Source: an uncultured Caulobacterales bacterium
GTDB lineage: Bacteria > Pseudomonadota > Alphaproteobacteria > Caulobacterales > Maricaulaceae
Direction of reading: 5' to 3'
DNA length: 64,000 nucleotides
Assembly: GCA_938003545.1 (NCBI GenBank)
Contig: CALKXY010000017.1
Coordinates: forward strand, 1-64,000
The notes beneath the pieces are model-generated. The model saw only the letters and a program-made list of their open reading frames with translations. It did not search any database and was not told where the DNA came from. The position numbers and the translations under genes are program-made. This document shows positions 53,350 through 62,411 of the stretch, in pieces; position 1 is the first letter of the stretch; each line of letters starts with the position of its first letter.

Positions 53350-56300
53350 CTAGTTACTTGGGCGAACCCGGCCGATGACTTGGCCGTTGGCGATGATTTC
53401 GCCGTTCGCATTGACGCGTCCGATAACAGCACCGGATTGGTTCACAACGGAGCCATCGGCGCGGACTGTGAAGTCACCCGCTGAAAGGGATCCACCAGAT
53501 GCAGCGCCAGTTGTTGTCGTCGCTGTACCGTTATTGAGGATCGTACCGCCAGAGCGTCCGATGGTTGAACGATTGTTCAATCCGCCAGCTGCGCCTGTTA
53601 CTGAACCAGTTGTGATCGAACCACCTGTTGCGGATAGACCGCGAACGATGACTTGACCTGTGCTGTTCACAACGTCGCCATTTGCACGGAGTGTTCCGAT
53701 AACAACACCTGCACTGTTACGGACAGAGCCGTCAGAGCCGATGGTGTAACCTGCAGCCGCGCCGCCAGTAGATCCGCCAGTCGTTGTGACTGTTGTACCT
53801 GTGGTGAAGCCGCCTGTTGTACCTGTCGTCGTTCCACCTGTGGTGAAGCCGCCTGTGGCCAACTGGTTGCCGGAGACCATTGAGCGCCAATCGACACCCA
53901 AAGCATCAACCGTACGGAGCGTTAGGCCGCCTGTGGACAAGCCACGAGCTGTCTGGAAACGCTCGACAGATGCGTAAGTCTGGCGACCTAGCTGTCCGTC
54001 AAGTGCGCCGGAGTAGAAGCCTTGTGTCTGAAGTGCGCGCTGGATGGCGCGGATCACAGTGACGTTAGAGTTCGCTTCACAGAGAACCTGACGCCATTCG
54101 GCTTTTTCCGGAGACGTTTGTGTCCGACGTTCGATCGTTCCGAACTGAGCCGGGATAACGACTGACTCTGTCCGTGCAGGTTGAACTACGCGCTGGACTT
54201 GAACCGTGTCGTAACGAGCAGGGATCACACGACGTTCGATACGTGGTGCACCATCAACCACGCGGCGCGTGACTTGCTTGGTGACGGCCGGGATCGTCCG
54301 CTCTTGTGTTGTCGCCGGTGTTTTGACGACGCGACGTGTAACCTGCTTCGTAACAGCCGGGATACGACGCTCTTGCGTCGACGCCGGTGTCTTAACGCGA
54401 CGACGGGTTTCCGTCTTCGTTACAGCTGGGATCGTCCGCTCAACAGTCGAAGCTGGTGTCCGCATAACGCGGCGTGCAACCTGTTTGGTCACAGCCGGGA
54501 TTGTGCGCTCACTGACGCTTGCCGGTGTCTTGACGACACGGCGAGAGACTTGCTTCGTCACAGCCGGGATTGTCCGCTCAACCGTACGCGCTGGCGTCTT
54601 GACGACGCGGCGTGTGAGGGCCTGCATTTTGGCTGGGATTGTACGTTCCACTGTCCGCGCTGGCGTTTTCACGACCTGACGGCTGACCTGCTTCGTAACA
54701 GCTGGGATTGTACGTTCTTGAGTAGAGGCCGGTGTCCGCATGACGCGACGTGCGACTTGCTTCGTCACAGCTGGGATACCGCGCTCTGTCACGCGCGCTG
54801 GTGTCTTAACGACACGGCGGGAGACTTGCTTGGTAACCGCTGGGATAGACCGTTCGATTGTCGACGCTGGCGTTTTCACGACACGACGTGTTTCCGTCTT
54901 GGTCACAGCCGGGATAGCCCGTTCTGTTGTCCGAGCCGGTGTCTTCACGACGCGGCGCGTTTCCGTCTTTGTCACAGCTGGGACACGACGCTCAACAACC
55001 GAAGCCGGTGTTTTCACGATACGACGCGTAACAGGCTTATTGACTGCAGGAACCGTACGCTCAGTGACCTGAGCCGGTGTCTTTACGACACGGCGGGAGA
55101 CTGACTTCGTAACAGCCGGGATCGTACGTTCGACTGTACGAGATGGCGTTTTGATACGACGACGTGTTTCCGTTTTCGTGATCGCTGGCACCGAACGCTC
55201 TTGTGTAGAGGCTGGTGTCTTGACGACGCGGCGGGAGACTTGCTTCGTCACAGCCGGGATTGTGCGCTCAACAGTCCGCGCCGGTGTCTTCACGACACGA
55301 CGTGTTTCTGTCTTCGTAACAGCTGGGATAGCCCGCTCAGTTGTCCGTGCCGGTGTCTTAACGACGCGGCGGGAAACTTGCTTGGTTACCGCTGGAACAG
55401 TGCGCTCAACAGTTGCTGCTGGTGTCTTGACGACGCGGCGAGTTTCCAACTTCGTGATCGCTGGAACCGTACGCTCTGTGACGCTTGCCGGTGTCTTAAC
55501 GACGCGGCGAGAGACCTGCTTCGTAACAGCCGGAGTTGCACGTTCGATTGTGCGAGCCGGTGTTTTGATGCGGCGACGTGTTTCCGTCTTCGTGATCGCC
55601 GGAACTGCACGCTCTTGCGTGGAGGCCGGTGTCTTGACGACGCGGCGGGAAACCAACTTAGTTACAGCGGGGATTGTCCGCTCAACAGTTGCAGCCGGTG
55701 TCTTGACGACGCGGCGTGTTTCCAACTTGGTCACTGCTGGGATAGCCCGCTCAGTTGTCCGTGCCGGTGTCTTGACGACGCGGCGGGACACTTGCTTCGT
55801 CACAGCCGGGATAGCCCGTTCGATAGTCGACGCTGGTGTCTTAACGACGCGGCGTGTTTCCATCTTTGTGACAGCTGGGATAGCCCGCTCAGTTACTCGT
55901 GACGGCGTTTTCACGACGCGGCGGGAGACTTGCTTGGTTACAGCAGGGATTGTCCGCTCAACGGTACGAGCCGGTGTCTTAATGACGCGGCGCGCTTCCA
56001 TTTTTGTGACGGCTGGGACGACACGCTCAACAGTCGACGCTGGCGTTTTCACGACGCGGCGGCTGATTTGCTTCGTTACAGCTGGGACACGACGCTCAAC
56101 CGTTGCGGCTGGCGTAGCGACACGACGACGTGTTTCCTGCTTTGTGATGGCCGGTACCGCACGTTGGATTGTGCTGGCCGGTGTCTTCACGACGCGGCGG
56201 GAGATTTGCTTTGTTACAGCAGGGATCGCCCGTTCGACAGTTGACGCTGGTGTCTTAACAACACGGCGCGTTTCCTGCTTTGTCACAGCTGGGATTGTAC

Positions 56301-59300
56301 GTTCTTGCGTACGAGCTGGTGTTTTGACGACGCGGCGGGAGACTTGCTTCGTTACAGCCGGAACAGTCCGCTCGATAGTCGACGCTGGTGTCTTAACGAC
56401 GCGGCGTGTTTCCATCTTAGTGACCGCAGGGATGCTGCGCTCTTGCGTACGAGCTGGTGTTTTGACGACGCGGCGAGAAACTTGCTTCGTGACGGCGGGG
56501 ATAGCCCGTTCGACAGTCCGTGCCGGTGTCTTAACGACGCGACGTGTTTCTTGCTTTGTAACAGCCGGGATGCCGCGCTCTGCGACAGTGGCTGGTGTCT
56601 TAACGACGCGGCGTGTGACCTGCTTGGTTACAGCTGGGATCGTGCGCTCAACAGTCCGTGCCGGTGTCTTAACGACGCGGCGTGTTTCTGTCTTCGTTAC
56701 GGCTGGAACCGTACGCTCTTGCGTCCGTGCCGGTGTCTTAACGACGCGGCGGCTGATCTGCTTCGTAACAGCTGGGATTGAACGCTCAACAGTTGACGCT
56801 GGTGTTTTAACAACACGGCGCGTTTCCTGTTTTGTGACCGCTGGGATTGTACGCTCTTGCGTAGATGCCGGACGATCAACAACGCGGCGTGTGACAGTCT
56901 GTGTCACGGCCGGGATTGTACGCTCTTGTGTACGAGCCGGTGTCTTAACAACACGGCGTGTGCGGGTCTTTGTGACCGCAGGGACAGCACGTTCAACCGT
57001 AGAGGCTGGTGTCTTAACAACACGACGGGAAACCTGCTTCGTTACCGCTGGAACGCGGCGCTCAACAGTTGCTGCCGGTGTCTTAACGCGACGGCGTGTT
57101 TCAGTCTTCGTGACGGCTGGGATCGTACGCTCAACAGTTGACGCTGGTGTCTTAACGACGCGGCGTGTGACGGTTGATGTCTTAGCTGGGATCGTACGCT
57201 CTTGTGTACGAGCCGGAGTTTTGACAACGCGGCGTGTTTCAACCTTCGTAACAGCTGGGATCGTACGTTCCGTAGTGGATGCCGGACGATCAACAACGCG
57301 ACGGGTCACTTGCTTCGTCACAGCAGGGATAGCCCGCTCGACTGTGCGTGCCGGTGTCTTAACGCGGCGACGTGTTTCCGTCTTTGTTACAGCTGGGATA
57401 GCCCGCTCAACGGTTGCCGCTGGGCGGTCAACAACGCGGCGTGTAACCGTCGATGTTTTGGCCGGGACAGTGCGCTCGATTGTGCGTGCTGGTGTTTTGA
57501 CAACGCGCTTGCTGAGTGTCTTCGTAACCGCAGGGATGCGGCGTTCGACGACTTTAGCTTCCTCAGACATGACACGTGTGGAGACCGAACCAACCTGCTG
57601 ACCAAATTGGCCGCCGGAGTTACGGGCACCGACGAGGCGAGAGCCGCCTGCAGTACGGTCAGCTGTTGCAGCATCAGCTTTGGATAAACCATCGCGGTCA
57701 TCACGACCATCACGGTTTGCATCGTTGAAGCCGTTGATACGTGTGCCGCCTGCGAAGTTGGAGCCAGAAGCATCCACAACGCGAGCTGGTGTCTTAACAA
57801 TACGACGTGTCAGCGTGCTTGTGACAGCTGGGACAGCGATTTCGCGTGTCGTCGCTTCACGGTCAACAACGCGCTTGCTGATCGCACGCGTTACAGCAGG
57901 AATGCTGCGCTCGATTGAACGGGCAGGCTCAACAACCACTTGTTTCGTGATTGTTTTGTACTTGGCCGGGATCAAGACGCGGCAAAGGATTTCGCCAGTC
58001 TGGTTCACGATAGTCTCAGTCGATTCGACGACTTGGTTCGATACGCCGTTAAAGACGGTGAACTGTCCGCGAGTGGCTGTGTTTACACGGCCACCTTGGA
58101 ACGCGCCAGAGTTGAGGGCCTGTGAACCAGGCTTCCACTCTTCACGAGCCGGCTCGATCAAGACGCGTTCTGAACGTGTCTCATATTTCGCCGGGATCAC
58201 GTCGATTTCGGTGCGTGTCGGTGTGACAACGATTGTTTCAGTGACAGACTTATATGTCGCTGGAACAACTTCGATACGTGTAGAGGCTTCCTGCGTGACG
58301 ATTGTCTCCGTCACTGTCTCATAGACAGCTGGGATAATTGTCAGCGTGTTGGCAGCTTCTTGTTGGATGTACTGCTGGTTTTCCGTGCGGAATTTAGCTG
58401 GAACAGAGACATACTCAACTGTTTCAGGCTGCACGATAACAGTCTCAGTGACAGTTTCATATTCAGCCGGAATAGAGACGAGCTCTGTAGAGGCTTCCTG
58501 AACAACGATAGTTTCAGTCACATTGCGATATGTTGCAGGTGTCACAACCAATTCTGTCGACGCTTCCTGAACAACGAGTGTTTCGTTGTATGTCTCATAG
58601 ACAGCTGGGACTGTTTCATATGTGACACTAGCAGGTTGAACGACAACAGTTTCGTTCACATTGCGGTATGTCGCAGGGACAGACAGCAACTCTGTTGTGG
58701 CTTCCTTGACAACAACAGTCTGAGACACAGTCTCGAATGTTGCTGGGATAACGACGAGTTCTGTTGCCGCTTCCTGAACAACCACTGTTTCAGTCACAGT
58801 GCCGTAAGTCGCTGGGACAGTCACAAGGTCTGTCGATGCTTCCTGAACAACCACTGTTTCAGTGAATGTTTCGTAGACGGCTGGGACAGAGACATACTCA
58901 ACTGTTTCAGGCTGAACAACGACTGTCTCAGTGACCGTTTCGAATGTTGCAGGGACCGAAACGAGATTTGTTGTCGCTTCTTGTACAACAACCGTTTCTG
59001 ACACTGTTTCGTAAGTCGCTGGGATAGAGACAAGCTCTGTAGAGGCTTCTTGAACAACAACAGTTTCTGTTACGTCTTTGAAAGATGCTGGAATGACAAC
59101 AAGCTCTGATGACGCTTCTTGAACAACCATTGTTTCTGAGACTGTCTCGTAAACAGCTGGAACAGCTGCGTATGTAACAGAGGCTGGCGTGACGACGACA
59201 GTTTCTGTGACAGTTTCGAACGTTGCTGGGATTGTAACGAGGTCAGTTGACGCTTCTTGAACAACAATTGTCTCGGAGACTGTTTCGAACACAGCAGGCA

Positions 59301-62300
59301 CCGTTTCATATGTAACGGAGGCAGGCTGAACAACGACTGTTTCAGTGACTGTCTCAAAGACAGGCGGGACAGTGACGAGTTGAGTGGAGGCTTCCTGAAC
59401 AACAACAGTTTCTGAGACTGTTTCGAACACAGCTGGAACAGATACATATTCGACGCCAGCAGGCTGGACGACGATTGTTTCAGTTACGGTTTCGAATGTT
59501 GCTGGGATAGAAACCAGCTCGCTGGACGCTTCCTGAACAATGACTGGCTCTGAAACTGTCTCATAGACAGCTGGAACGGAGACATACTCAACAGAGGCTG
59601 GCGTGACGACGACAGTTTCTGTGACAGTTTCGAACGTTGCTGGGATTGTGACGAGTTCAGTCGAGGCTTCCTGAACAACAACAGTCTCAGAGACTGTCTC
59701 GAATGTTGCCGGAACTGATACATACTCAACGCCAGCCGGCTGAACAACAATCGTTTCCGCGACTGTTTCATAGACGGCCGGGACAGAGACGAGTTCTGTA
59801 GAGGCTTCCTGAACGACGACTGTTTCAGTGAAGGTTTCGTATTTGGCTGGAACGGACGCATATTCAACCGTTGCAGGCTGAACGACAACTGTTTCAGTCA
59901 CTGTTTCGTAGGTCGCAGGGATAGTTACGAGGTTCGTGGACGCTTCCTGAACAATGATTGGCTCTTGGATCGTCTCATAGACGGCTGGAACGACTTCATA
60001 TGTGACAGAGGCTGGCGTGACGACGACAGTTTCTGTGACAGTTTCGAACGTTGCCGGGATTGTGACGAGGTCAGTTGACGCTTCTTGAACGACAACCGCT
60101 TCAGACACAGTTTCGAAGACAGCGGGTACAGTTACATATTCAACGCCAGCAGGCTGGACGACGACAGTTTCTGAGACTGTTTCGAAGACAGCAGGGATGG
60201 TGACCATCTCGCTGGACGCTTCTTGAACAACAACTGTTTCCGATACTGTTTCATAAACAGCTGGGACGGAGACATATTCTGCCGTTGCAGGTTGAACGAC
60301 GACTGTTTCTGACACTGTTTCATATGTTGCAGGGATCGTGATCAAGTCAGTGGACGCTTCCTGAACAACGAGTGTTTCAGTGTAAGTTTCATACTCAGCC
60401 GGAACGGACACATATTCGACGCCAGCAGGCTGAACGACGACAGTTTCTGTTACAGTTTCGAATGAAGCTGGGATCGTGACAAGCTGTGTTGAGGCCTCTT
60501 GAACGACAACAGTTTCTGACACTGTTTCGTAAACAGCTGGAACAGAGACATATTCAACCGTTGCAGGTTGAACGACGACTGTTTCTGACACCGTTTCGAA
60601 TGTCGCAGGGATAGAGACCAGCTCGCTAGACGCTTCCTGAACAACGATTGTCTCGGAAACTGTGTCATAGACAGGCGGTACGACTTGGTACTCAACTGTT
60701 GCAGGCTGAACGACGACTGTCTCGGAGACAGTTTCGAATGTCGCAGGGATTGTGACCAATTCGGAACTAGCTTCCTGAACGACAACAACGTCTGTGTAGT
60801 TTTCATACTCAGCTGGAAGAACAGCATATTCGACGCCAGCAGGCTGGACAACGACGGTTTCTGTCACAGTTTCGAATGTCGCAGGGATTGTGACCAACTG
60901 TGTGCTGGCGGCTTGGACCTGAACGTTTTCTGTTACTGTTTCAAAGACAGGCGGGACAGTGACGAGCTCTGTGCTCGCTTCCTGAACGACGACTGTTTCG
61001 GAGACGGTTTCGAATGTTGCAGGGATTGTGACCAGCTCGCTGGATGCTTCCTGAACAACGATCGTTTCGCTGACAGTTTCAAAGACAGCTGGGACAGTTA
61101 CATATTCGACGCCAGCAGGCTGAACGACGACTGTTTCTGTGACGGTTTCGAATACCGCTGGGATCGTGATCAGTTCAGAAGAGGCTTCTTGTGCAACAAC
61201 TGTTTCCTGCACTGTCTCGAAGACAGGCGGGACAGTGACGAGTTGTGTAGAGGCTTCCTGAACAACGACTGTCTCTGTGACAGTTTCATATGTTGCTGGA
61301 ACCGTAACAAGCTCAGTTGCGGCTTCTTGCGCAACAACAGACTCTGTTACGTTTTCGAACTGTGCTGGAAGCACTGTGTACTCAACACTTGCAGGCTGGA
61401 CGACGACTGTCTCTGTGACAGTTTCATATGTAGCCGGGATTGTGACGAGCTGTGTTGCAGCTTCTTGAGAGACCATTGTCTCTTGAACTGTTTCAAAGAC
61501 GGCAGGAACAGTAACGAGCTCTGTGCTGGCTTCCTGAACAACAACCGTTTCTGTGTAATTTTCATAAACAGCAGGGATAGTTGAATATTCAACTGACTCT
61601 GGCTGAACAACGACTGTTTCGCTGACTGTTTCATAAACAGGCGGAATAGCGACGAGTTCTGTGGAGGCTTCTTGAACAACCACTGTTTCCGTTACTGTGC
61701 GGAATGTTGGCTGACCAGATGTTGCGCCGCCGCGATAAGCGTTAACCGCAGAGCGGGAAACAATATTGCCGCCAGAGGCAACGATGTTGCCTGATCCATC
61801 AAGTGACCCAACACGGGAGCCTGATGCGTTGAAGACTGTTCCGTCGGAAGAGACGGCGTAAGTCGTGCCGCCAATGACGAGACGTGTACGTGAAGACCCA
61901 GTGCCGATGAGTGTAAGGGGGTTAACAGCATTTGCAGCCAGGACGCTGCCGTTTGAAGCAACAAGGTTACCAGAGGCGTCTACAGTGCCGATGCGGGCGC
62001 CGGATGCGTTCGTAACAGTTCTGGAGGAATCGATATTATAAGCTGTGCCGTTGATTGTAACGGTAACGCGGCCACGGCCAGGAACAACAGAACCACCGCC
62101 AGCGACGAAGAGCTCATAGCTTTCTTCTTGAACGAGAATACGTTCAGTTACTGTTTCGAGCTGAGCAGGGATCTTTTTGATCTCTTCTCCGGCCTGACGC
62201 AGAACAACCTGCTCAGTCGATGTTTGGTACTGCGCAGGTACGATAACCCGAGCAAAACATTCACCTGGAAGCGGATTACCTGGCGGTAGCTCCTGAGCGA

Positions 62301-62355
62301 GTGTTGGTGCGGCTAAGACCGCGGCCGATGCGGCCAGTAAAAGAGTGCGTTTCAT
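53350..62355 (-). CDS. Giant secreted 23-residue-repeat protein with acidic and basic halves and a peptidoglycan-binding domain
   Basis: The ATG at 62355 gives 3001 residues with a signal peptide (LLLAASAAVLAAPTLAQ); the track's start at 62400 adds 15 residues before it. Order: signal peptide; Cys-containing founder segment (ECFARVIVPAQYQT); two copies of an SDGTVxNASG module; 51 acidic 23-residue repeats (VVVQEASTELVTIPATYE type); cap and second founder (LCRVLIPAKYKTITKQ); an EF-hand-like linker; about 48 basic repeats (RRVVKTPARTVERTIPAV type); EW cap and CEAN; a PG_binding_1 domain; a Gly/Thr-rich linker; two more SDG modules. Only three Cys are present. From memory, shorter wall-binding proteins with a handful of the same repeats exist in Proteobacteria; this looks like an extreme expansion. 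It is probably an envelope or surface structural protein; no enzymatic motif is seen. It is transcribed alone, with a CtrA-type box upstream and a strong terminator downstream. Confidence 0.93.
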   Translation of the reverse strand: MKRTLLLAASAAVLAAPTLAQELPPGNPLPGECFARVIVPAQYQTSTEQVVLRQAGEEIKKIPAQLETVTERILVQEESYELFVAGGGSVVPGRGRVTVTINGTAYNIDSSRTVTNASGARIGTVDASGNLVASNGSVLAANAVNPLTLIGTGSSRTRLVIGGTTYAVSSDGTVFNASGSRVGSLDGSGNIVASGGNIVSRSAVNAYRGGATSGQPTFRTVTETVVVQEASTELVAIPPVYETVSETVVVQPESVEYSTIPAVYENYTETVVVQEASTELVTVPAVFETVQETMVSQEAATQLVTIPATYETVTETVVVQPASVEYTVLPAQFENVTESVVAQEAATELVTVPATYETVTETVVVQEASTQLVTVPPVFETVQETVVAQEASSELITIPAVFETVTETVVVQPAGVEYVTVPAVFETVSETIVVQEASSELVTIPATFETVSETVVVQEASTELVTVPPVFETVTENVQVQAASTQLVTIPATFETVTETVVVQPAGVEYAVLPAEYENYTDVVVVQEASSELVTIPATFETVSETVVVQPATVEYQVVPPVYDTVSETIVVQEASSELVSIPATFETVSETVVVQPATVEYVSVPAVYETVSETVVVQEASTQLVTIPASFETVTETVVVQPAGVEYVSVPAEYETYTETLVVQEASTDLITIPATYETVSETVVVQPATAEYVSVPAVYETVSETVVVQEASSEMVTIPAVFETVSETVVVQPAGVEYVTVPAVFETVSEAVVVQEASTDLVTIPATFETVTETVVVTPASVTYEVVPAVYETIQEPIIVQEASTNLVTIPATYETVTETVVVQPATVEYASVPAKYETFTETVVVQEASTELVSVPAVYETVAETIVVQPAGVEYVSVPATFETVSETVVVQEASTELVTIPATFETVTETVVVTPASVEYVSVPAVYETVSEPVIVQEASSELVSIPATFETVTETIVVQPAGVEYVSVPAVFETVSETVVVQEASTQLVTVPPVFETVTETVVVQPASVTYETVPAVFETVSETIVVQEASTDLVTIPATFETVTETVVVTPASVTYAAVPAVYETVSETMVVQEASSELVVIPASFKDVTETVVVQEASTELVSIPATYETVSETVVVQEATTNLVSVPATFETVTETVVVQPETVEYVSVPAVYETFTETVVVQEASTDLVTVPATYGTVTETVVVQEAATELVVIPATFETVSQTVVVKEATTELLSVPATYRNVNETVVVQPASVTYETVPAVYETYNETLVVQEASTELVVTPATYRNVTETIVVQEASTELVSIPAEYETVTETVIVQPETVEYVSVPAKFRTENQQYIQQEAANTLTIIPAVYETVTETIVTQEASTRIEVVPATYKSVTETIVVTPTRTEIDVIPAKYETRSERVLIEPAREEWKPGSQALNSGAFQGGRVNTATRGQFTVFNGVSNQVVESTETIVNQTGEILCRVLIPAKYKTITKQVVVEPARSIERSIPAVTRAISKRVVDREATTREIAVPAVTSTLTRRIVKTPARVVDASGSNFAGGTRINGFNDANRDGRDDRDGLSKADAATADRTAGGSRLVGARNSGGQFGQQVGSVSTRVMSEEAKVVERRIPAVTKTLSKRVVKTPARTIERTVPAKTSTVTRRVVDRPAATVERAIPAVTKTETRRRVKTPARTVERAIPAVTKQVTRRVVDRPASTTERTIPAVTKVETRRVVKTPARTQERTIPAKTSTVTRRVVKTPASTVERTIPAVTKTETRRRVKTPAATVERRVPAVTKQVSRRVVKTPASTVERAVPAVTKTRTRRVVKTPARTQERTIPAVTQTVTRRVVDRPASTQERTIPAVTKQETRRVVKTPASTVERSIPAVTKQISRRVVKTPARTQERTVPAVTKTETRRVVKTPARTVERTIPAVTKQVTRRVVKTPATVAERGIPAVTKQETRRVVKTPARTVERAIPAVTKQVSRRVVKTPARTQERSIPAVTKMETRRVVKTPASTIERTVPAVTKQVSRRVVKTPARTQERTIPAVTKQETRRVVKTPASTVERAIPAVTKQISRRVVKTPASTIQRAVPAITKQETRRRVATPAATVERRVPAVTKQISRRVVKTPASTVERVVPAVTKMEARRVIKTPARTVERTIPAVTKQVSRRVVKTPSRVTERAIPAVTKMETRRVVKTPASTIERAIPAVTKQVSRRVVKTPARTTERAIPAVTKLETRRVVKTPAATVERTIPAVTKLVSRRVVKTPASTQERAVPAITKTETRRRIKTPARTIERATPAVTKQVSRRVVKTPASVTERTVPAITKLETRRVVKTPAATVERTVPAVTKQVSRRVVKTPARTTERAIPAVTKTETRRVVKTPARTVERTIPAVTKQVSRRVVKTPASTQERSVPAITKTETRRRIKTPSRTVERTIPAVTKSVSRRVVKTPAQVTERTVPAVNKPVTRRIVKTPASVVERRVPAVTKTETRRVVKTPARTTERAIPAVTKTETRRVVKTPASTIERSIPAVTKQVSRRVVKTPARVTERGIPAVTKQVARRVMRTPASTQERTIPAVTKQVSRQVVKTPARTVERTIPAKMQALTRRVVKTPARTVERTIPAVTKQVSRRVVKTPASVSERTIPAVTKQVARRVMRTPASTVERTIPAVTKTETRRRVKTPASTQERRIPAVTKQVTRRVVKTPATTQERTIPAVTKQVTRRVVDGAPRIERRVIPARYDTVQVQRVVQPARTESVVIPAQFGTIERRTQTSPEKAEWRQVLCEANSNVTVIRAIQRALQTQGFYSGALDGQLGRQTYASVERFQTARGLSTGGLTLRTVDALGVDWRSMVSGNQLATGGFTTGGTTTGTTGGFTTGTTVTTTGGSTGGAAAGYTIGSDGSVRNSAGVVIGTLRANGDVVNSTGQVIVRGLSATGGSITTGSVTGAAGGLNNRSTIGRSGGTILNNGTATTTTGAASGGSLSAGDFTVRADGSVVNQSGAVIGRVNANGEIIANGQVIGRVRPSN
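53353..53476 (-). repeat. SDG-type module, fourth copy (C terminus of giant protein)
   Basis: Encodes FTVRADGSVVNQSGAVIGRV followed by NANGEIIANGQVIG. It matches the pattern xDGxVxNxxGxxIGxxxxxGxIxxxGxVI seen near the N terminus, and ends the protein. Confidence 0.7.
53641..53749 (-). repeat. SDG-type module, third copy
   Basis: Encodes YTIGSDGSVRNSAGVVIGTL followed by RANGDVVNSTGQVIV, the same pattern as the other three copies. It follows a Gly/Thr-rich stretch (53755-53875) that acts as a linker after the wall-binding domain. Confidence 0.7.
53893..54085 (-). other. PG_binding_1 domain within the giant protein
   Basis: The segment AIQRALQTQGFYSGALDGQL, then GRQTYASVERFQTARGL and GGLTLRTVDALGV, is a three-helix peptidoglycan-binding domain 1. 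It directly follows the cap WRQVLCEANS and is the only part of the protein with a predictable ligand. Confidence 0.85.
54268..57579 (-). repeat. Basic 23-residue repeat array (about 48 units of 69 bp)
   Basis: Forty-seven regular units (54268-57510) and one divergent leading unit encode repeats of the form RRVVKTPA(R/S)T(V/I)ERTIPAV with alternating ends TKQVS and TKTET. A typical unit has five or six Arg/Lys and one or two Glu, a net charge of about +4. Two further divergent units (57960-57888 and on) plus a cap unit follow the same 23-residue spacing. Synonymous codons vary between units, so protein sequence rather than DNA identity is being kept. Confidence 0.95.
57689..57727 (-). other. 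EF-hand/dockerin-like Asp-rich linker in the giant protein
   Basis: Encodes NDANRDGRDDRDG, close to the DxNxDGxxD calcium-binding loop. It lies in the spacer (about 57580-57780) between the second founder units and the main basic array. A single loop may bind calcium weakly or only fold with a partner. Confidence 0.5.
58168..61686 (-). repeat. Acidic 23-residue repeat array (51 units of 69 bp)
   Basis: Fifty-one consecutive units encode repeats with three or four Glu and almost no Lys/Arg. Two unit types alternate for much of the array: QEAST(E/D)LVTIPAT(Y/F)E and QPA(G/T)VEYVSVPAVYE, giving a 46-residue (138-bp) double repeat. Three near-identical stretches at 59181, 59595 and 60009 are exactly 414 bp apart (six units), showing recent segmental duplication. 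The array keeps perfect 69-bp phase from end to end. Confidence 0.96.
61756..62058 (-). repeat. Two N-terminal SDG-type modules in the giant protein
   Basis: Copy one encodes YNIDSSRTVTNASGARIGTV with DASGNLVASNG; copy two encodes YAVSSDGTVFNASGSRVGSL with DGSGNIVASGG. They interrupt the founder repeat unit and the acidic array, and mirror the two modules at the C terminus. Confidence 0.7.
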
Positions 62356-62411
62356 ATTACGAAAACCCCCAAAGTCTTCCAGTGTCGTTACCCGCGACAT
62401 GCGGATATCTC

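Follow-up and report, generated by a model that had tools for sequence, protein, structure and literature searches.

Two chain segments zipped together by complementary charges are the idea behind the 'charge zipper' hairpins of TatA and Erns. Both are membrane-associated segments, that of Erns is described as an amphipathic helix, and the TatA model was not supported in vivo (PMC5601993, PMC8002126). In short β-hairpin model peptides, lateral and diagonal carboxylate-ammonium pairs form across antiparallel strands at positions that can be swapped (PMC7961788, PMC9268152). In MpAFP, which a marine bacterium exports, a Ca-dependent Ig-like domain of 104 residues is repeated about 120 times, so that the protein is very long and repetitive (PMC4083281). 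Charge zippers and ion-paired hairpins are already known as ideas, at far smaller scale than the case described here.

The window, a 64,000-nucleotide stretch from an uncultured Caulobacterales bacterium, encodes a protein of 3001 residues, here called the giant, that is like MpAFP in being very long, repetitive, exported and from a marine bacterium. It has no Ig-like domain, and no Pfam match of the Ig-like or RTX kind was found in it; instead, two complementary arms lie in one chain. With TatA and Erns the giant shares the idea of a charge zipper and no homology, as it is predicted to be a β structure, is exported and would bring together about 1240 residue pairs. The ion-paired hairpin peptides resemble the proposed hairpin in their lateral and diagonal pairs at swappable positions. 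They are short models, whereas the giant is natural, with more than 1000 facing residues and a register code. Pfam/NCBIfam curated models for repeats gave only sub-threshold matches in the arrays, and a search of the open-licence literature returned no description. We know of no self-complementary β-hairpin near this length, and if our reading is true the giant is far longer. As far as can be told, a natural hairpin with more than 1000 facing residues and an evolving register code is new. Our reading, to which we assign a probability of about 0.87 from sequence comparisons across the family, is that the protein would form one giant antiparallel β-hairpin with its acidic arm on its basic arm.

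Layout of the gene and its two arrays

An open reading frame spans positions 53350-62400 on the minus strand, with an ATG at 62355 (Table 1). As read from its sequence, the protein is intact and Sec-exported. No lipobox Cys follows the signal peptide, the first Cys being residue 33, after TLAQELPPGNPLPGE. The PG_binding_1 domain (PF01471) scores 34.5 bits, above the gathering cut-off of 23. Two insertions interrupt the arrays. That of the N arm gives a weak, sub-threshold match to Pfam Bflower_2, and in orthologues its length varies from 0 to 147 aa at a constant position. The tip-proximal insertion of the C arm, which adjoins the degenerate C-arm unit 4, carries a motif (DANRDGRDDRDG) that resembles calcium-binding DxNxDG motifs and occurs in 19 of 27 giant sequences.

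Table 1. Predicted features of the giant gene, in window positions
Feature	Residues	Position	Strand	Basis
Whole gene, predicted secreted giant hairpin protein, 3001 aa		53350..62355	-	sequence
Sec-type signal peptide, MKRTLLLAASAAVLAAPTLAQ, without lipobox	1-21	62293..62355	-	read from sequence
Cys33, conserved first Cys, N-arm base (x = -5)	33	62257..62259	-	
N-arm units 1-2	39-84	62104..62241	-	unit segmentation
Insertion rich in Gly that separates N units 2 and 3, 129 aa	85-213	61717..62103	-	
N-arm (acidic) units 3-54, last residue Trp1407	214-1407	58135..61716	-	segmentation
Tip loop, 50 residues, KPGSQALN...QFTVFNG...TGEIL, conserved among giants	1408-1457	57985..58134	-	
Cys1458, conserved, first residue of C arm at tip	1458	57982..57984	-	
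C-arm units 1-3	1462-1530	57766..57972	-	unit segmentation
Insertion of 53 aa that separates C units 3 and 4; calcium-binding-like motif DANRDGRDDRDG		57607..57765	-	
C-arm (basic) units 4-54, last residue Trp2754	1584-2754	54094..57606	-	
Cys2759 (WRQVLC), conserved third Cys at base	2759	54079..54081	-	
PG_binding_1	2768-2819	53899..54054	-	Pfam, E 2.4e-8
Gly/Thr C-terminal tail, DG.V.N..G.VIG repeats, weak DUF3659 match		53353..53718	-	

Profile-based segmentation yields 54 acidic units followed by 54 basic units, all of 23 residues (consensus IPATFETVTETVVVQEASTELVT and IPAVTKQVTRRVVKTPASTVERV). This count takes in every in-register unit, including the Trp-ended terminal units and the degenerate unit beside the insertion. 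The preliminary description, made from the DNA letters, had the order of the two halves and the constant unit length right, and its counts of 51 acidic and about 48 basic units were too low. The arrays carry net charges of -168 and +209; along the chain, cumulative charge falls to a minimum of -162 near residue 1406 and then climbs by 218. Both arrays show a strong 2-unit (46-residue) superperiod, and unit counts are nearly all even. Antisense to the basic array lies an 816-aa open frame (window 55151-57601, plus strand), which probably reflects codon usage in the repeats, not a gene.

Giants and short relatives have a common frame: Cys, n units, Trp, a loop, Cys, n units, Trp..Cys and a wall-binding domain. 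We read 26 full-length giants (2429-3043 aa, the window protein included), and the two arms have equal unit counts in 23 of them, with 54/54 in 18 species (5 genera) and 46/46 in 5 species (2 genera); the exceptions are 52/48, 54/50 and 42/41. Short relatives with a few such repeats, mentioned in the preliminary description, do exist as 4/4 proteins with PG_binding_1 and the same frame. Short relatives as a whole are about 190-540 aa long; of 40 examined for four units per module 39 fit, and the middle Cys is replaced by another residue in two 4/4 proteins. Other equal counts are 3/3, in a rhizobial-type form, and 6/6, in one family member (the counts 3/3, 6/6, 14/14 and 3+3+3+3 come from visual inspection). 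That arm counts match over independent sizes (3/3, 4/4, 6/6, 14/14, 46/46 and 54/54) suggested one-to-one pairing of the arms. In L035, compared with L037, losses of eight units (N 23-30 and C 25-32) are exact mirrors; these favour an antiparallel arrangement only suggestively, as their positions lie mid-array and move with the reference used.

The charge split is retained by close orthologues, being present in 26 of the 26 full-length giants. Elsewhere it is weak at n = 4 (mean net -4.5/+2.9), absent from the 6/6 relative (-3/-11) and only partial in the n = 14 proteins, whereas in the giants it is extreme. The split is thus not a defining feature of the family and seems to go along with great length.

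Charge covariation between the arms

For the 18 proteins of 54/54 units, each charge was expressed as its departure from the column mean, and the N and C arms were then set against each other at every register. Pairing N residue x with C residue 1239-x gave the strongest negative covariation (z = -14.7), the lowest of 3230 registers and antiparallel. Register 1239 stayed at rank 1 after removal of any clade, and also inside single clades. The neighbouring registers 1237, 1238 and 1241 were negative too; signals at 1237 and 1241 would be expected from diagonal neighbours in an antiparallel sheet. On the diagonal x+y = 1237, some fixed residues count against pairing, with 1095 like-charged and 298 opposite pairs. 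At the level of whole units, i and 55-i were anticorrelated (mean r -0.36, z -5.2), and in independent contrasts between sister species none of the 102 registers fell below i+j = 55 (z -4.1). The irregular end units are likewise mirrored, with a profile correlation of 0.88 at i+j = 55. The earlier suggestion of pairing between the two halves is strongly supported by these alignments, which define an antiparallel, residue-by-residue arrangement with N unit i opposite C unit 55-i. Hydropathy and volume covariation had no strong peak at 1239. Two other geometries were rejected: parallel pairing of N unit i with C unit i gave a weak signal that was not at a residue register, and for a double-wound solenoid the expected second peak at 1239 +/- 23 was absent.

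Among residue pairs, the strongest signal comes from position 6 of the N unit and position 14 of the C unit (z -12). At i+j = 55, the 972 such pairs include 607 acid-base, 110 base-acid and no like-charged combinations, compared with 109-180 like-charged pairs in the control registers tested. Key pairs are mostly Glu in the N arm with Lys in the C arm, and swapped ones are Arg/Lys with Asp/Glu. Sixteen unit positions carry both polarities across species; at 13 of them the C-arm residue is more often acidic where N6 is basic, and at none of the 16 does an acidic N6 stand against an acidic C14. In every 54/54 and 46/46 species the polarity strings of the two arms are complementary with zero clashes, and a slip by 1 to 6 units gives 5.4-10 clashes per molecule, about 10 for a one-unit slip. 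Swapped base-acid pairs are dense near the tip, at N units 47, 49, 51 and 53 in many species.

A family register of x+y = 23n-3 is predicted and is matched exactly by the 54/54 proteins. In the register set by their own length, none of the five 46/46 proteins shows a clash. Their signal is strongest at 1054 and 1056, on either side of the predicted 1055, which itself reaches only z -2.1. In 39 very divergent short 4/4 relatives, registers 88 and 89 are the lowest of 242, with 89 predicted, and no N6/C14 pair is like-charged. A single N-arm bulge removes every clash from the 52/48, 54/50 and 42/41 giants and keeps both ends in register; that unequal counts need a bulge in 3 of 26 giants counts against a simple hairpin. 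The register puts Cys33 opposite Cys2759 to about one residue, which suggests that a disulfide may join them at the base.

The proposed hairpin and competing arrangements

AlphaFold2 was given the window junction (23 sequences) and the Rubricella 4/4 protein. In both arrays it predicts a 12-residue and a 7-residue strand per unit with two-residue corners between them; pLDDT is about 80 and 90-96 where coverage is best, and pTM is low (0.23 and 0.32). Because the units are periodic, most of the strand mirroring is trivial and only irregular strands are informative. Shortened strands are placed at facing positions (67-70/254-257 in the junction, 36-41/205-210 in the short relative), and the strand sum changes by the exact length of the 53-residue insertion. 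Pairing of the N and C arms is thus compatible with the models. A PDB sequence search gave only weak matches, to other repetitive proteins, Foldseek against the PDB (top TM-score 0.13) and against viral models gave no meaningful match, and no solved precedent for a bare two-stranded ribbon this long was found. An extended strand measures 0.33 nm per residue. If fully extended, the modelled ribbon would be about 0.4 micrometre long in the giant and about 30 nm in the 4/4 form; coiling would shorten it.

In the hairpin that we propose, the chain would ascend the 54-unit acidic arm, turn in the 50-residue tip loop and descend the 54-unit basic arm. N residue x would lie opposite C residue 1239-x, long strand on long and short on short, and cross-strand ion pairs would hold the arms together. 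Folding would start with the turn at the tip loop and then zip toward the base. With the charge split, neither repetitive arm would pair with itself; on its own, the split would let the arms meet but leave the correct register undefined. The scattered swapped pairs, concentrated near the tip, would penalise slips, and the correct register alone would be free of like-charge clash. The charge pattern would in this way be a lock-and-key code for fit, with both arms altered in matching ways between species. The base, where Cys33 and Cys2759 would come together, possibly as a disulfide, carries PG_binding_1, whose putative binding to peptidoglycan would fix the ribbon to the wall. The tip would display the conserved loop and, in most species, the calcium-binding-like insertion.

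Zipping is likely to take place inside one chain. Were the N arm of one molecule instead to zip antiparallel onto the C arm of its neighbour, into a swapped dimer or into a fibre or sheet with open ends, the register and the covariation would be identical, and tip Cys1458, which has no obvious partner, could link molecules. We consider pairing between chains unlikely. Equal counts, mirrored end units and the 3/3 and 4/4 frame best fit a local fold-back, single-chain AlphaFold2 models put the irregular strands at facing places, and the swapped pairs cluster near the tip, where zipping of a hairpin would begin. It is far less probable still that each array folds alone, as a β-solenoid or a string of hairpins, with arms that never meet and charges that serve other partners (for instance, cations in the case of the acidic half and anionic polymers of wall or lipid type in that of the basic half). 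Such folding would suit the AlphaFold2 strand pattern, which is the same in both arrays, the low global confidence of the models and the strong 2-unit periodicity inside each array. However, it does not predict 0 of 972 like-charged pairs in exactly one register, swaps coordinated between the arms or equal unit numbers; scans within the arrays found no comparable negative long-range signal, and the covariation already contradicts it.

Assembled in full, the hairpin reading would describe a new envelope filament: one 3000-residue chain, self-zipped into a peptidoglycan-anchored, two-stranded β-ribbon of ~0.4 micrometre, with an evolving ion-pair polarity code, a functional tip and, as ancestor, a hairpin with four units per arm. 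We lean towards this composite picture. Its role is more tentative: in prosthecate cells it might serve as an envelope cable anchored to the wall or as a fibre on the surface. Either a structural cable, in the envelope or the stalk, or a surface fibre that displays the tip would fit. PG_binding_1 and OmpA are peptidoglycan-binding domains of the periplasm, and because both of these alternative end domains bind peptidoglycan there, we prefer a periplasmic wall-anchored cable, as a doubtful first choice. If true, the hairpin would be a natural answer to how a highly repetitive zipper finds its single correct register among many, and a code rewritten jointly in both arms would be a readable record of coordinated evolution. 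It would also offer a ready template for protein engineering and raise the testable question of how stalked bacteria use so large a cable anchored to their wall.

Distribution, authenticity and relatives

Giant-type matches occur in 38 of 137 genomes of the family Robiginitomaculaceae, across 8 genera, with named records from Litorimonas, Robiginitomaculum, Hellea and Algimonas. The family comprises prosthecate marine bacteria (PMC11556061). In nearly all cases the locus is conserved, the giant gene lying between rplU-obg-proB and the HAD phosphatase/M16 peptidase. The gene is also present in one single-contig genome of 3,169,281 bp, exactly as long as the Algimonas porphyrae genome that was closed with Nanopore reads (PMC11556061). 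Because it sits in this closed genome, and in a conserved locus, the gene is no assembly artefact, a doubt that the preliminary description had raised. That the repeats are recent slippage products or assembly errors without functional design, as superperiods of 2, 4 and 6 units among the tandem repeats might hint, deserves next to no credence and is already contradicted by strong purifying selection over orthologous arrays (dN/dS 0.05-0.12), DNA identity of only about 58-72% between units inside one array, 54 units that are one-to-one positional orthologues with exactly 54/54 in 18 species, the conserved locus and the closed Nanopore genome.

Among the relatives, the short PG_binding_1 proteins with two modules (L046, and L125 of Rubricella aquisinus) have the same frame and antiparallel register signal as the giant; they differ in having n = 4 per module against its 54 and a weak charge split. 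No characterised member was found among them. Two Flavobacteriaceae MAGs encode OmpA-ended relatives of 831 and 832 aa (L129 8529-11024 and L131 115-2613, both plus strand), with the frame and units of the giant, 14 units per arm and a basic C arm (+43 and +41). Unlike the giant, they carry an OmpA domain in place of PG_binding_1, a nearly neutral N arm and 22 residues in every third C unit, where the giant has a constant 23.

Smaller variants were seen elsewhere. A genome of the same class (G172) encodes an exported relative of 192 aa that has 3 + 3 units and lacks a peptidoglycan-binding domain (L141 1384-1959, plus strand), and a genome of the same phylum (G196) encodes a gammaproteobacterial-type relative with four modules of three units (3+3+3+3) and PG_binding_1 (L140 286-1917, plus strand). 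In a Hellea sp. MAG, a YfbK-like VWA protein (L130 1523-3901, plus strand) has an insert of the same units in the order acidic units, short PNG turn, basic units, which, from its sequence, looks like a small hairpin of the giants' kind. Genomes of genus g7 often have two 4/4 paralogues and no giant, and the window's own genome also has a 4/4 paralogue without PG_binding_1 (L045 1091-2359, plus strand; G000:C40).
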